Below are positions 5,468 to 14,446 of a stretch of DNA of 64,000 bases, piece by piece. The notes beneath the pieces are model-generated. The model was not told where the DNA came from and did not search any database. It saw only the letters and a list, made by a program, of their open reading frames with translations. Location of the stretch: contig NZ_CP127174.1 of NCBI RefSeq assembly GCF_030273315.1, positions 2,666,001 through 2,730,000 of the forward strand, in the 5' to 3' direction. The stretch's first letter is position 1, and each line of letters opens with the position of its first letter. The position numbers and the translations under genes are program-made. Source of the stretch: Natrialbaceae archaeon AArc-T1-2. Lineage in GTDB: Archaea > Halobacteriota > Halobacteria > Halobacteriales > Natrialbaceae.

Positions 5468-5860
5468 AGGCCGTACGTCCGCCCGAACTCCCATTACTAT
5501 TGATGCCCTCGCGATTGGACCGTTTTTCTTTCGCGCGGACAGGACGGGAGCGTAGTGCTACTGTCGCCTGATGTGTCCTGCTCCGCTCACGACATCTTCA
5601 TAGGCGTGTATGCCAAAGACGAACTGCGCGGGTCTCATTCGGTCGGACTGCGTCCACGACGGTCGGGATGAACGATCGGCCTCCGCCCGCGCGATACCGT
5701 CGTTCGAGTCGCTTCGCTCACCGTCCACGTGTTAATAGGGGATCCATTATGCCGTCCAACAAACATGCCCATATCCACGTTTCGAATAGGCTGTCCGGCA
5801 CCGCGGTGACGACCGGCGCGCATTCCGATTGTCTCTCTAAGGAATGGGACTTCGGAGACG
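5468..5860. other. Distal rRNA leader region, no gene seen
   Basis: No open frame with haloarchaeal protein composition is present. The DNA is less biased than coding sequence. GTGTTAATAGGG near 5728-5740 could be an additional weak promoter element, but I cannot support it further. Confidence 0.4.
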
Positions 5861-5864
5861 ACGC

Positions 5865-5874
5865 TTTTATATAT
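5865..5874 (+). promoter_or_regulatory. Upstream rRNA promoter candidate (TTTTATATAT)
   Basis: The strongest TATA-like box in the rRNA leader, about 385 bases before the 16S start. Haloarchaeal rRNA operons commonly have several tandem promoters, which this box and the two downstream boxes would fit. Confidence 0.55.
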
Positions 5875-5944
5875 GCGGGTAGCCTCCGACCAAATACGCA
5901 ATCTCGAGCCCTGGTGTGATTCCTGGGGTTGGGATGATCCGATG

Positions 5945-5965
5945 CCCTTAAGTGTTCGAGGGCGT
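5945..5965 (+). promoter_or_regulatory. rRNA promoter candidate with TTAAGT box inside a short inverted repeat
   Basis: CTTAAGT at 5947-5953 lies within GCCCT...AGGGC, a 5-bp inverted repeat spanning about 5945-5963. TTAAGT-type boxes occur in haloarchaeal rRNA promoters. It is about 90 bases downstream of the previous box and of similar design to the next one. Confidence 0.5.
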
Positions 5966-6028
5966 TGGGATGAAAACGCAACGATGCGTGATCGACGGGG
6001 CTGATGCCCCGTCGGCACGGACGGTGCG

Positions 6029-6056
6029 CTTCGAAGGGGTTAAGTACTCCTCGAAG
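6029..6056 (+). promoter_or_regulatory. Proximal rRNA promoter candidate with TTAAGTA box inside an inverted repeat
   Basis: GGTTAAGTACTCC is centred at 6040-6046 and flanked by CTTCGAAGGGGT and ACTCCTCGAAG, which are almost perfect inverted repeats. Position about 200 bases before 16S, the TTAAGTA core and similarity to the 5947 box support a main rRNA promoter. The dyad symmetry could be a regulator site or coincidence. Confidence 0.55.
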
Positions 6057-6128
6057 CGTACGACTACGTCCGAAGGAAATGAGGATCCTACCCCTGCGGT
6101 CTTCCGTACAGATGGGATCTGATGTGAG

Positions 6129-6187
6129 CCTCGACAGTTCGGTGACGCCCGATCGGTTCGCGATCGTGGGTCGATCACCGAACGTGG
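6129..6187 (+). other. 5' strand of the 16S processing stem with bulge-helix-bulge site
   Basis: This strand pairs with 7778-7830 to enclose the 16S gene. Paired blocks are CCTCGACAGTTC (6129-6140) with 7819-7830, GCCCGATCGG (6147-6156) with 7803-7812, GTGGGT (6166-6171) with 7794-7799 including two wobble pairs, the 4-bp CGAT (6172-6175) with ATCG 7787-7790, and CGAACGTGG (6179-6187) with 7778-7786. The 3-nt bulge CAC (6176-6178) and the CCC bulge on the other strand flank the 4-bp helix. That is the canonical substrate of the archaeal splicing endonuclease. Confidence 0.9.
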
Positions 6188-6249
6188 ACCATTTGTGTGA
6201 GTGTGTATCTACATTCACCGCCAAACCCTCCCCTTCACGGGGAGATAGC

Positions 6250-7718
<1,469 letters not shown>

Positions 7719-7777
7719 ACAGCCCGGGACTGGGGCGTCGCCCCAGCCCACCACTCGTGGCCCATTGTGCCACACCA

Positions 7778-7830
7778 CCACGTTCGATCGCCCACCCGTA
7801 GGCCGATCGGGCACCTTTGAACTGTCGAGG
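7778..7830 (+). other. 3' strand of the 16S processing stem
   Basis: CCACGTTCG (7778-7786), ATCG (7787-7790), bulge CCC (7791-7793), ACCCGT (7794-7799), CCGATCGGGC (7803-7812) and GAACTGTCGAGG (7819-7830) pair with 6129-6187. The order helix, 4-bp helix, 3-nt bulge, helix mirrors the 5' strand, as the bulge-helix-bulge geometry requires. Confidence 0.9.
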
Positions 7831-7864
7831 CTCTACCTTCCTTTCGGCGGTTGTCCGAAAGTTA

Positions 7865-7936
7865 GGGCCCATAGCTCAGTGGGAGAGTGCCTCCTTTGCA
7901 AGGAGGATGCCCTGGGTTCGAATCCCAGTGGGTCCA
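7865..7936 (+). tRNA. tRNA-Ala (anticodon TGC)
   Basis: This 72-nt cloverleaf sits in the 16S-23S spacer, the usual place for tRNA-Ala in archaeal rRNA operons. The acceptor stem is GGGCCCA pairing with TGGGTCC (one wobble), followed by discriminator A. The anticodon stem is CCTCC/GGAGG with loop TTTGCAA, giving anticodon TGC. The T-arm is CTGGG-TTCGAAT-CCCAG. No intron is present. CCA is not encoded. It is co-transcribed with the rRNAs. Confidence 0.97.
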
Positions 7937-8084
7937 TGTCTCGGCCCGTCGTCGAATCGCTCCCCTTAAGTGGGAGACGGCGCGACGATTGGGTACGACA
8001 GAACCGATGCACCACCCCGTGTAAACGCGGGTGGGAAGGGTTGATGCAGGCCAGCTGTCTACTGGCGTGCGGATGAGACCGTGT

Positions 8085-8126
8085 GTACGTGTAGTCCAGG
8101 CGTCCACTGGACCCGTTCCCGGGTCA
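8085..8126 (+). other. 5' strand of the 23S processing stem with bulge-helix-bulge site
   Basis: GTACGTGTAGTCCAG (8085-8099) pairs with 11119-11133; GCGT (8100-8103) pairs with GCGC 11112-11115 with one wobble; CCA (8104-8106) is a 3-nt bulge; 8107-8126 pairs with 11092-11111 with one mismatch. This is a canonical bulge-helix-bulge substrate bracketing the 23S gene. Confidence 0.9.
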
Positions 8127-8167
8127 CTACATCGTTGCGACTTCGTCGCAACGCCGATCCGTCGAAC

Positions 8168-11075
<2,908 letters not shown>

Positions 11076-11091
11076 CATACCGCATGGATCA

Positions 11092-11133
11092 TGACCCGGA
11101 AACGGGTCCAGGCGCAGACTGGACTACACGTAC
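11092..11133 (+). other. 3' strand of the 23S processing stem
   Basis: 11092-11111 pairs with 8107-8126, GCGC (11112-11115) with 8100-8103, AGA (11116-11118) is the 3-nt bulge, and CTGGACTACACGTAC (11119-11133) pairs perfectly with 8085-8099. Confidence 0.9.
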
Positions 11134-11156
11134 GACACGGTTGTGGCGGAGAGAGA

Positions 11157-11195
11157 CCGATACTGGAGTGGCGACGGTTCGATTCCGTCGATCGG
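11157..11195 (+). ncRNA. t-element (tRNA-like processing signal) of 5S copy 1
   Basis: A mini-tRNA shape without D- and anticodon arms: CCGAT (11157-11161) pairs with ATCGG (11191-11195), and a T-arm-like hairpin CGACGG-TTCGATT-CCGTCG spans 11172-11190. A tRNA-like t-element before 5S rRNA is known in Haloferax volcanii, where tRNase Z cuts the 5S 5' end. It ends two bases before the 5S start, as that mechanism needs. Confidence 0.8.
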
Positions 11196-11197
11196 CG

Positions 11198-11319
11198 TTC
11201 GGGCGGCCACAGCGGCGGGGCGCTCCCGTACCCATCCCGAACACGGAAGATAAGCCCGCCAGCGTTCCGGCAAGTACTGGAGTGGGAGACCCTCTGGAAA
11301 CGCTGGTTCGCCGCCTCCA
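11198..11319 (+). rRNA. 5S ribosomal RNA, copy 1
   Basis: About 122 nt with the archaeal 5S core GGCGGCCACAGCGG, then CCCGTACCCATCCCGAACAC and the closing GGTTCGCCGCC. It differs from copy 2 by a handful of substitutions, for example GGCAAGTACTGG against GGCGAGTACTGG and GGAAACGC against GGGAAAGG. Ends are estimated from the t-element and terminal pairing. Confidence 0.95.
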
Positions 11320-11338
11320 CTCATATCTCAGACGGCGA

Positions 11339-11377
11339 CCGACAGTGGTCTGACGGCGGTTCGATTCCGCCGGTCGG
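11339..11377 (+). ncRNA. t-element (tRNA-like processing signal) of 5S copy 2
   Basis: Same design as the first: CCGAC (11339-11343) pairs with GTCGG (11373-11377), and CGGCGG-TTCGATT-CCGCCG forms the T-arm-like hairpin at 11354-11372. Several stem positions differ from copy 1, but pairing is kept (GACGG/CCGTC becomes GGCGG/CCGCC, CCGAT/ATCGG becomes CCGAC/GTCGG), which are compensatory changes supporting function. Confidence 0.82.
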
Positions 11378-11379
11378 CA

Positions 11380-11501
11380 TTCGAGCGGCCACAGCGGCGG
11401 GGTGCTCCCGTACCCATCCCGAACACGGAAGATAAGCCCGCCAGCGTTCCGGCGAGTACTGGAGTGGGAGACCCTCTGGGAAAGGCGGTTCGCCGCTTCC
11501 A
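11380..11501 (+). rRNA. 5S ribosomal RNA, copy 2
   Basis: Second 5S gene, exactly 182 bases downstream of copy 1 and nearly identical to it. It keeps all core elements (GCGGCCACAGCGGCGGGG, CCCGTACCCATCCCGAACAC, terminal GGTTCGCCGC) and has its own t-element, so it looks functional. Confidence 0.95.
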
Positions 11502-11620: not shown

Positions 11621-14446
11621 ATGACCGACGGGGACGTCGCCGCGTTTACCTACCTCGGTGCGACGGTTCGTGAGGCGCTCTCCGATCGCGGCTTTTCGAC
11701 GCCGACGGCACCCCAGCGGCTCGCGATTCCGCCGATCGCGGCCGGAGAGGATACGCTCGTGATCGCGCCAACGGGGAGTGGCAAGACCGAGACGGCAATG
11801 TTACCCGTCTTCGATCACGTCCTCGAGTCCGGTCCACCGGAGGGATTCGCCGCGCTGTACGTGACGCCGTTGCGGGCGTTGAACCGGGACATGCGCGACC
11901 GCCTCGAGTGGTGGGGCGAGACCCTGGAACTCGAGGTCGACGTGCGCCACGGTGATACGACCCAGTATCGACGGGGAAAGCAGGCCGAAGACCCGCCAGA
12001 TATCCTGGTTACGACGCCCGAGACGCTGCAGGCGATGCTGACGGGAGAGCGATTACGCGAGGGGCTGGTGGACGTCTCACACGTCGTGATCGACGAGGTA
12101 CACGAGCTCGCAGCCGCCAAGCGCGGAGCACAGCTTGCGGTCGCCCTCGAGCGACTCCGAGACCTCGCGGGGCCGGTCCAGCGGATCGGGCTCTCGGCGA
12201 CCGTCGGCGACCCCGAGGAGGTGGGGCAGTTCCTGACCGGCGGCCGACCGTGTGCGATCCGGGAGATCGACGTCGGAAGCGACATCGACGTCACCGTCCG
12301 CGAACCCGAGGTGCGCGAGGCCGACGAGGATCTGGCGGGGACGCTGGTGACCGATCCCGAGACGGCGAGTCACGTTCGGTTCATCCGGGAGCTCGTCGAC
12401 GAACACGAGTCGACATTGATATTCGTCAACACGCGACAGACGGCCGAGGCACTCGGCTCGCGGTTCACGGAACTCGACGCGCCGATCGCCGTCCACCACG
12501 GGTCACTCTCGAAGGAGGCTCGAATCGAAGTCGAAGACCGATTCAAGGACGGCGACCTCGAGGCCTTGCTCTGTACCTCCTCGATGGAACTCGGGATCGA
12601 CGTCGGGCGGGTCGATCACGTAGTTCAGTACCAGAGTCCGCGCCAGGTCACGCGACTCCTCCAGCGGATCGGGCGGGCGGGCCATCGCATGGACGAGGTC
12701 TCTCGAGGGACGATCGTCACGACCCGGCCGGACGACACCTTCGAGGCGATCGCGATCGCCAGACGTGCCCGCGCGGGAGAGGTCGAGCCGGCGGCGATCC
12801 ACGAGGGCAGTCTCGACGTCGTGGCGAACCAGATCCCGGGGATCGTCCAGAGCCAGGGGGATACGGCCGTCACCGAGGCCTACGAGACCGTCTCGCGGGC
12901 GTACCCGTTCCGGGAGCTCGAGGCGGCGACGTTTCGCGAGGTGCTCTCGGAGCTTCACCGCAACCGGATCGTCTGGTTCGACGAGGACGAGGACCGGATC
13001 GGGGCCACGGGCAACACCTGGCAGTACGTCTACGCGAACCTCTCGATGATTCCCGACGAGGAGACCTACGACGTCGAGGACGTCGCGTCCGGGAGCCCGG
13101 TTGGCACGCTAGACGAGCGGTTCGTCGTCAACTTCGCCTCGCCCGGCGAGGTGTTCGTCCAGCGCGGGGAGATGTGGCGAATCGCCGAGGTCGACGACGA
13201 CGAGGGCGTCGTCACGGTGAGTCCGATCGAAGATCCCGCGGGCGAGGTCCCGTCCTGGACCGGCCAGGAGATTCCCGTTCCCTACCCCGTCGCCCAGGAG
13301 GTCGGCGAGATCCGGAGGGTGGTCGCGTCCCAGTTCGGCGCGGGCAGCGAGGCGTCCGTCGCCCGCGAGCTCGCGAGCCGGTACCCGGCCGACGAGTCCA
13401 CTCTCGAGTCCGCCCTCTCACAGCTCGCCGATCACGTCGAGACCAACGCGCCGATGCCGACGGACGACCGGCTCGTCCTCGAGCGCCAGGGTCGGTCGGT
13501 CGTCCTCAACGCCGCGTTCGGTCATCGGGCAAACGAGACGCTCGGTCGGGTGCTGTCGTCGCTGCTCGGCCAGCAGTCGGGTTCGTCGGTGGGGCTCGAG
13601 GTCGACCCCTACCGGATCGAACTCGAGGTGCCGACGGCGATCGCGACGAGCGACGTGTGTGACGTCCTCGAGGGGACCGATCCGGATCACGTGGAGGCGA
13701 TCGTCGAACTGGGACTGAAACGTTCCGACGCGCTCGCGTTTCGGCTCTCGCAGGTCGCGGCGACGTTCGGTGCACGCAAGCGCTGGCAGGGGTCAGGTCG
13801 GATGTCGACCGAACGGTTGCTCTCCGCCCTCGAGGGGACGCCGATGTACGAGGAGGCGATCCGGGAGGTGTTTCACGAGGATCTCGACCCCGAGCGGGCG
13901 CAGTCGGTTCTCGCTTCGATCCGATCCGGCGAGCTCGAGGTCGTCACGACGCGGGGTCGGACGCCGGTCGGGCGCGGCGGCCGGTCGTCGGGCAGGGAGT
14001 TGCTCGCGCCGGAGAACGCCGACGCGAGCGTTATCGAGACGGTTCGCGAGCGGATTCGAAACGATCGCGTGATCCTGCTCTGTACGCACTGCCGGGAGTG
14101 GACGTCGAAGACGAAAGTCCGGCGGGTTTCCGACCAGCCCGAGTGTCCACGCTGTGAGTCGACCCGGATCGCGGCGTTGAACCCCTGGGACGAGGAGACG
14201 GTCGCGGCGGTCCAGGCCGAAGACAGAGACGAGCACCAGGAGGAGCTAACCGAGCAGGCATACCGGCGGGCGAGTCTCGTCCAGAGCCACGGGAAACGGG
14301 CCGTCATCGCGCTGTCGGCTCGCGGCGTCGGTCCACACAACGCGGCACGGATCATCAACAAGCTCCGGGAGAACGAGGACGACTTCTACCGGGACATCCT
14401 GGCCAGGGAACGCGAGTACGCCCGCACGCGGTCGTTCTGGGAGTGA
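11621..14446 (+). CDS. Lhr-type ATP-dependent superfamily 2 helicase
   Basis: A 941-aa DNA/RNA helicase of the Lhr-core group. Visible motifs are APTGSGKTETA (Walker A, about residue 50), VTPLRALNRDM, TTPETLQAML, the DEVH box at about 157, LSATVGD, LIFVNTRQTAEALG, the SSMELGIDVG segment and RIGRAGHR (motif VI). The long C-terminal part carries a zinc ribbon (CTHC at about 820, CPRC near 843), typical of archaeal Lhr proteins. The frame opens further upstream, but that region is inside the 5S gene; ATG 11621 begins right before conserved sequence and has a TATA-like box at leaderless spacing. Lhr proteins are linked to DNA repair and RNA metabolism; a link to rRNA is only positional here. Confidence 0.9.
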   Translation: MTDGDVAAFTYLGATVREALSDRGFSTPTAPQRLAIPPIAAGEDTLVIAPTGSGKTETAMLPVFDHVLESGPPEGFAALYVTPLRALNRDMRDRLEWWGETLELEVDVRHGDTTQYRRGKQAEDPPDILVTTPETLQAMLTGERLREGLVDVSHVVIDEVHELAAAKRGAQLAVALERLRDLAGPVQRIGLSATVGDPEEVGQFLTGGRPCAIREIDVGSDIDVTVREPEVREADEDLAGTLVTDPETASHVRFIRELVDEHESTLIFVNTRQTAEALGSRFTELDAPIAVHHGSLSKEARIEVEDRFKDGDLEALLCTSSMELGIDVGRVDHVVQYQSPRQVTRLLQRIGRAGHRMDEVSRGTIVTTRPDDTFEAIAIARRARAGEVEPAAIHEGSLDVVANQIPGIVQSQGDTAVTEAYETVSRAYPFRELEAATFREVLSELHRNRIVWFDEDEDRIGATGNTWQYVYANLSMIPDEETYDVEDVASGSPVGTLDERFVVNFASPGEVFVQRGEMWRIAEVDDDEGVVTVSPIEDPAGEVPSWTGQEIPVPYPVAQEVGEIRRVVASQFGAGSEASVARELASRYPADESTLESALSQLADHVETNAPMPTDDRLVLERQGRSVVLNAAFGHRANETLGRVLSSLLGQQSGSSVGLEVDPYRIELEVPTAIATSDVCDVLEGTDPDHVEAIVELGLKRSDALAFRLSQVAATFGARKRWQGSGRMSTERLLSALEGTPMYEEAIREVFHEDLDPERAQSVLASIRSGELEVVTTRGRTPVGRGGRSSGRELLAPENADASVIETVRERIRNDRVILLCTHCREWTSKTKVRRVSDQPECPRCESTRIAALNPWDEETVAAVQAEDRDEHQEELTEQAYRRASLVQSHGKRAVIALSARGVGPHNAARIINKLRENEDDFYRDILAREREYARTRSFWE

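Follow-up and report, generated by a model that had tools for sequence, protein, structure and literature searches.

The 64,000-nucleotide stretch of the Natrialbaceae archaeon AArc-T1-2 genome analyzed here (hereafter the window) carries an rRNA operon that ends in two complete 5S rRNA genes. Each is preceded by a tRNA-like t-element of its own, and the second of these units, on the evidence of its sequence, is an ancient and separately evolving paralogue of the first. The preferred reading, to which a probability of roughly 0.75 is assigned, is that an old duplicated t-element/5S unit in one of three rRNA operons would give one transcript, two tRNase Z cuts and two 5S RNAs, a reading developed from the anatomy, distribution, covariation and paralogue identity observed in this analysis. 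The tandem itself is of a known kind, while the compensated pair of helix I of the 5S rRNA, which is strictly paralogue-specific, and its parallel in bacterial tandems, are new; this helix I pattern was not found stated in the literature searched, most subscription papers being outside the search.

Anatomy of the operon and its t-elements

The components of the operon, all on the + strand, are as follows.

6250..7719 (+): 16S rRNA (Rfam RF01959, 1601 bits)
7865..7936 (+): tRNA-Ala(TGC) in the 16S-23S spacer (ARAGORN and Rfam)
8163..11076 (+): 23S rRNA (Rfam RF02540, 2807 bits)
11156..11198 (+): t-element 1; acceptor-like stem 11157-11161/11191-11195, T-arm-like stem 11173-11177/11185-11189, without anticodon arm
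11199..11319 (+): 5S rRNA copy a, unit 1 (Rfam RF00001, 81.5 bits); helix I pair G11202:C11315
11320..11337 (+): short spacer separating copy a from t-element 2; the stretch homologous to the other operons stops at 11325
11338..11380 (+): t-element 2; acceptor-like stem 11339-11343/11373-11377, T-arm-like stem 11355-11359/11367-11371
11381..11501 (+): 5S rRNA copy b, unit 2 (Rfam RF00001, 81.9 bits); helix I pair A11384:T11497
11507..11547 (+): strong hairpin just 3' of unit 2 (predicted fold, about -31 kcal/mol, without clear T tract)

The initial annotation had described two complete 5S genes, each with its own t-element and 182 bases apart, and this is confirmed by the Rfam matches: both copies cover model positions 1-120 of 120, their scores standing against a threshold of 38 bits, and the two units (t-element plus 5S each) are spaced exactly 182 bp. 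Two complete 5S genes thus lie in the same orientation behind one 23S gene, i.e., the arrangement of an rrnD-type tandem-5S operon. Copies a and b differ at eight aligned positions, two of which constitute one compensated pair, G11202:C11315 in copy a being replaced by A11384:T11497 in copy b, a change absent from the list in the initial annotation. The predicted hairpin that follows unit 2 is possibly the 3' end of the operon or a terminator structure. Approximately 120 bp past the second 5S, a large DEAD/DEAH-box helicase ORF, Lhr-like by appearance, occupies positions 11621-14446 (+) of the window; this neighbour is not common to the tandem operons of other genera.

Each t-element consists of an acceptor-like stem stacked on a T-arm with a 7-nt loop, without anticodon arm, located directly 5' of its 5S gene, and ARAGORN detected no tRNA at either position, i.e., no full cloverleaf with an anticodon. 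The assignment of t-element 1 is based on its sequence, on covariation over 25 t-elements and on identical copies in the two other operons of the genome, and that of t-element 2 on its sequence, covariation and the conservation of unit-2 t-elements across genera. The compensatory pairs previously quoted (CCGAT/ATCGG against CCGAC/GTCGG, and GACGG/CCGTC against GGCGG/CCGCC) are indeed present, and the accompanying claim that both processing signals are under selection is supported by an alignment of 25 distinct t-elements of both ranks, in which 99.6% of stem cells show standard pairing and five of the ten pairs have changed on both sides. None of 500 shuffles equalled this covariation, a count that is not to be read as a probability since the aligned rows are related, and the pairing signal was also lost when partners were slid by one to three columns. 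Two observations count against the preferred reading: both t-elements of the window have a non-standard pair 7 and a non-standard outermost acceptor pair, and the unit-2 t-elements of a few relatives (e.g., G035, G037 and the Natrialba-type g14 genomes) are strongly altered.

The AArc-T1-2 genome (3.36 Mb, three contigs) possesses four 5S genes in three rRNA operons. The two other operons contain a single 5S each, preceded by a t-element identical to that of unit 1, and these single 5S genes match copy a, with one base differing in one operon. Compared with window positions 5853-11325, these operons (L007 and L006) display 98.0% and 98.9% identity, respectively, which ends abruptly at position 11325, six bases beyond the first 5S; unit 2 is missing there, and the 5S unit of these operons is only ~90% similar to it. 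Unit 1 is therefore homogenised among the operons, and unit 2 is not. The two single-5S operons share a terminator-like hairpin with a T tract, which in L007 lies between the single 5S and a tRNA-Cys gene (L007 1351-1426, - strand), in line with the earlier remark that haloarchaeal 5S genes are often followed by tRNA-Cys.

Distribution and divergence of the second unit

A search pattern consisting of two 5S cores 163-223 bp apart was applied to 392 genomes of the class and matched 39 of them; removal of three (G184, G320 and G084) left 36 true matches, and these 36 all belong to the family of the window. Matches in G184, G320, G084 and G007 were rejected as 5S, the matched strings being unlike 5S. 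Further tandems were added for G037 (spacing 230) and, by reading, for G112, G113 and G115. The tandem is consequently present in at least 40 of the 101 sampled family genomes, representing ten of the family's 29 genera, these counts including drafts whose contigs can break at rRNA; no true match was obtained in 291 genomes of other haloarchaeal families, with the qualification that other spacings or 5S motifs escape the pattern. It was furthermore found on complete chromosomes and on plasmids, including three plasmids in PLSDB. The initial annotation had set the arrangement against a haloarchaeal norm of one 5S per operon; this holds for the genome's own remaining operons, and the tandem is nonetheless less exceptional than was implied because it is common within the family and had earlier been noted in Natrinema sp. 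J7-2 (PMC3402447).

On a tree of RpoA' the presence of the tandem is patchy, with at least nine changes over 30 genomes, and conservation of its 3' flanks does not extend beyond single genera or closely related ones. For these reasons the evidence falls short of proving that the tandem arose once in an ancestor and was later lost in some lineages, and a conserved genomic location was rejected as proof of such an origin; transfer of the tandem between relatives is possible.

Both units were compared in 18 genomes. In all 18, the t-element of copy b is nearer to the copy b t-element of another genus than to that of its own copy a, which bears out the earlier statement that the second unit is not a fresh copy. 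The ends of the 5S behave likewise, copy b grouping with copy b of other genera in 17 of 18 genomes with one tie. The 5S interiors often follow the genome instead: in 11 of the 18 genomes copy b has its closest counterpart in its own copy a, differences within a genome amount to 0-11 of about 100 positions, and the interiors of G037 are identical. It would thus appear that interiors are often homogenised by recombination, the ends and t-elements keeping their identity. A fresh duplication is rejected by the paralogue-specific t-elements and helix I.

In the proposed scheme, the operon would be transcribed through both units, and tRNase Z would take each t-element for a tRNA mimic and cut at its 3' end, creating the 5' end of each 5S, so that a single transcript would yield two 5S RNAs. 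Gene conversion would keep copy a the same as in the other operons, and copy b, located beyond the inter-operon homology, would evolve alone, with selection keeping a foldable 5S and a working t-element. Co-transcription is suggested by the + strand between the units, where a search revealed no terminator-like site, and by terminator-like hairpins with T tracts that in many relatives follow unit 2, none being placed between the units; cleavage and incorporation of the 5S RNAs into ribosomes would presumably follow. In most genomes of one genus (g16; loci L020, L022, L023, L028 and others), a small conserved hairpin without T tract, of the TCGACCAAT..GGTCGA type, stands in the spacer that joins the first 5S to the second t-element, and may act as the signal for the 3' end of the former; the window has no such hairpin.

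The helix I difference and its possible origins

At pair 4 of helix I, all 24 unit-1 rows have G:C and all 38 unit-2 rows have A:U (one plasmid being counted twice), and further tandems that were read conform, without exception among the family tandems read. A sequence pattern for the A:U-type 5S occurs in 42 family genomes and in none of 291 other genomes; the 5S of the window itself, with one internal base fewer, escapes it. Wherever upstream context is available, the A:U-type 5S is the second of a tandem, and across the family the G:C-type 5S occupies first or single positions. A comparable situation exists in E. coli K-12, where seven 5S genes share C3:G117 and rrfF, the distal 5S of rrnD, is alone in having U3:A117. 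Tandem 5S were also sought in bacterial and archaeal genomes, yielding at least 63 usable bacterial pairs, whose rows include many relatives; among the matches listed, the second copy tends to have weaker helix I pairs.

Two explanations of this difference, which are not mutually exclusive and are both compatible with an old duplicated unit giving two 5S RNAs, were weighed. One of them, which is tentative, starts from the presence of both 5S on a single transcript: selection would keep their terminal helices unlike each other, preventing the 5' strand of copy b from being captured by the 3' strand of copy a, and the switch would protect correct folding. The strict G:C/A:U switch in every family tandem read and the lone position of rrfF among the eight E. 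coli 5S genes are as this would predict, as are duplex energies: the native pairings sum to about -26.7 kcal/mol against -22.4 kcal/mol for the swapped ones, and the two become about equal once copy b is reverted to G:C, the switch thus costing the cross-paired state ~4 kcal/mol. These energies are no proof of selection, however, because any compensated difference automatically weakens cross-pairing, and minimum-energy folding of the whole tandem is uninformative, neither supporting nor refuting mispairing, since the native 5S was recovered in neither version. Among the matches listed, 51 of the 63 bacterial tandems have a compensated helix I difference of at least one pair, and tandems whose interiors differ by 0-1 base carry a mean of 1.35 compensated helix I pairs, compared to 0.17 between genomes matched for interior difference, which again favours selection for distinct helices; yet nine of the 63 listed show no standard-pair change in helix I, three of these nine being identical throughout that helix, changes that would block adjacent mispairing are not preferred among these matches (Fisher p 0.46), and the many relatives among the bacterial rows weaken the comparison.

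The other explanation, which is given even odds and somewhat more weight than selection for distinct helices, is that gene conversion homogenises the 5S interior and not the ends of the block, leaving the old helix I difference as a fossil without selection. The small number of interior differences within a genome, combined with paralogue-specific ends and t-elements, agrees with this, and so do, among the matches listed, five Pasteurellaceae genomes in which copy 1 is homogenised with the other operons and agrees in helix I with their single-copy 5S, copy 2 being the one that deviates. Mutation bias would likewise predict the direction of change in the listed bacterial tandems (L127-L245), where G:C became A:U or G:U 82 times and the reverse occurred 28 times. 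Such a fossil sits less easily with the finding that, among the bacterial matches listed, the inner helix I pairs (9, 10 and 6) change as often as the outer ones, an absence of concentration at the outermost pairs that suits selection better, and with the uniformity of the family tandems read, G037 with its identical interiors included. That unit 2 is instead a non-functional relic or an assembly artefact, the latter a concern raised in the initial annotation, is very improbable: an artefact is rejected on the grounds that dozens of independently made assemblies show the tandem as well, complete chromosomes and plasmids from many genera among them, and a relic agrees poorly with helices conserved by compensatory change and with a copy b whose Rfam score equals that of copy a. 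A broader rule, whereby selection would keep archaeal and bacterial tandem 5S orthogonal in helix I and the second of two 5S RNAs on one transcript would have to carry compensated changes against cross-pairing, is considered rather unlikely; if it were true, it would have arisen independently in the haloarchaeal G:C/A:U switch and in rrfF of E. coli.

Relation to known systems and significance

Two 5S genes in one rRNA operon were reported in 2012 for Natrinema sp. J7-2 (PMC3402447), a haloarchaeon of the group that the family of the window appears to match. Like the AArc-T1-2 genome, it has three rRNA operons, one of them with two 5S (PMC3402447); the available text of that account gives the count only, whereas the t-elements, paralogue divergence and helix I switch are described here. 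In Natrialba magadii, replicon pNMAG01 was reported to carry an ‘orphan’ 5S that is 89% identical to the other 5S (PMC3403918); evidently this gene belongs to a tandem (L008), in which it stands as unit 2 after a complete rRNA operon with a complete unit 1. The t-element and 5S of this unit 2 are strongly diverged, with the A:U helix I pair kept.

Cleavage by tRNase Z at the 5S t-element of Haloferax was established by Holzle et al. 2008 (via PMC4326828, PMC7714728 and PMC3296008), and this cut, which gives the 5' end of the 5S, is known in vitro and for Haloferax only (PMC4326828, PMC3296008). Haloferax volcanii resembles the window in having a tRNA-like element directly before the 5S, but the known case is a single unit, whereas the window has two t-elements of different sequence. 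The E. coli rrnD operon (rrfD-thrV-rrfF) likewise has tandem 5S at its end, the second copy alone bearing a compensated helix I pair, and differs in having a tRNA gene instead of a t-element between the 5S genes and a start-to-start distance of 245 bp. The enzyme that processes 5S in E. coli is RNase E, which is different from the haloarchaeal one. With such bacterial parallels, rrnD included, laboratory strains can be used to test a specific hypothesis on folding or processing.

Why some genomes have a surplus of 5S genes has been raised as a question (PMC7283268). Extra 5S genes are usually noted as a mere count, while the second copy described here is a distinct cross-genus paralogue with its own processing signal and an unvarying compensated difference in helix I, which suggests that there may be two kinds of 5S rRNA in cells of this family.
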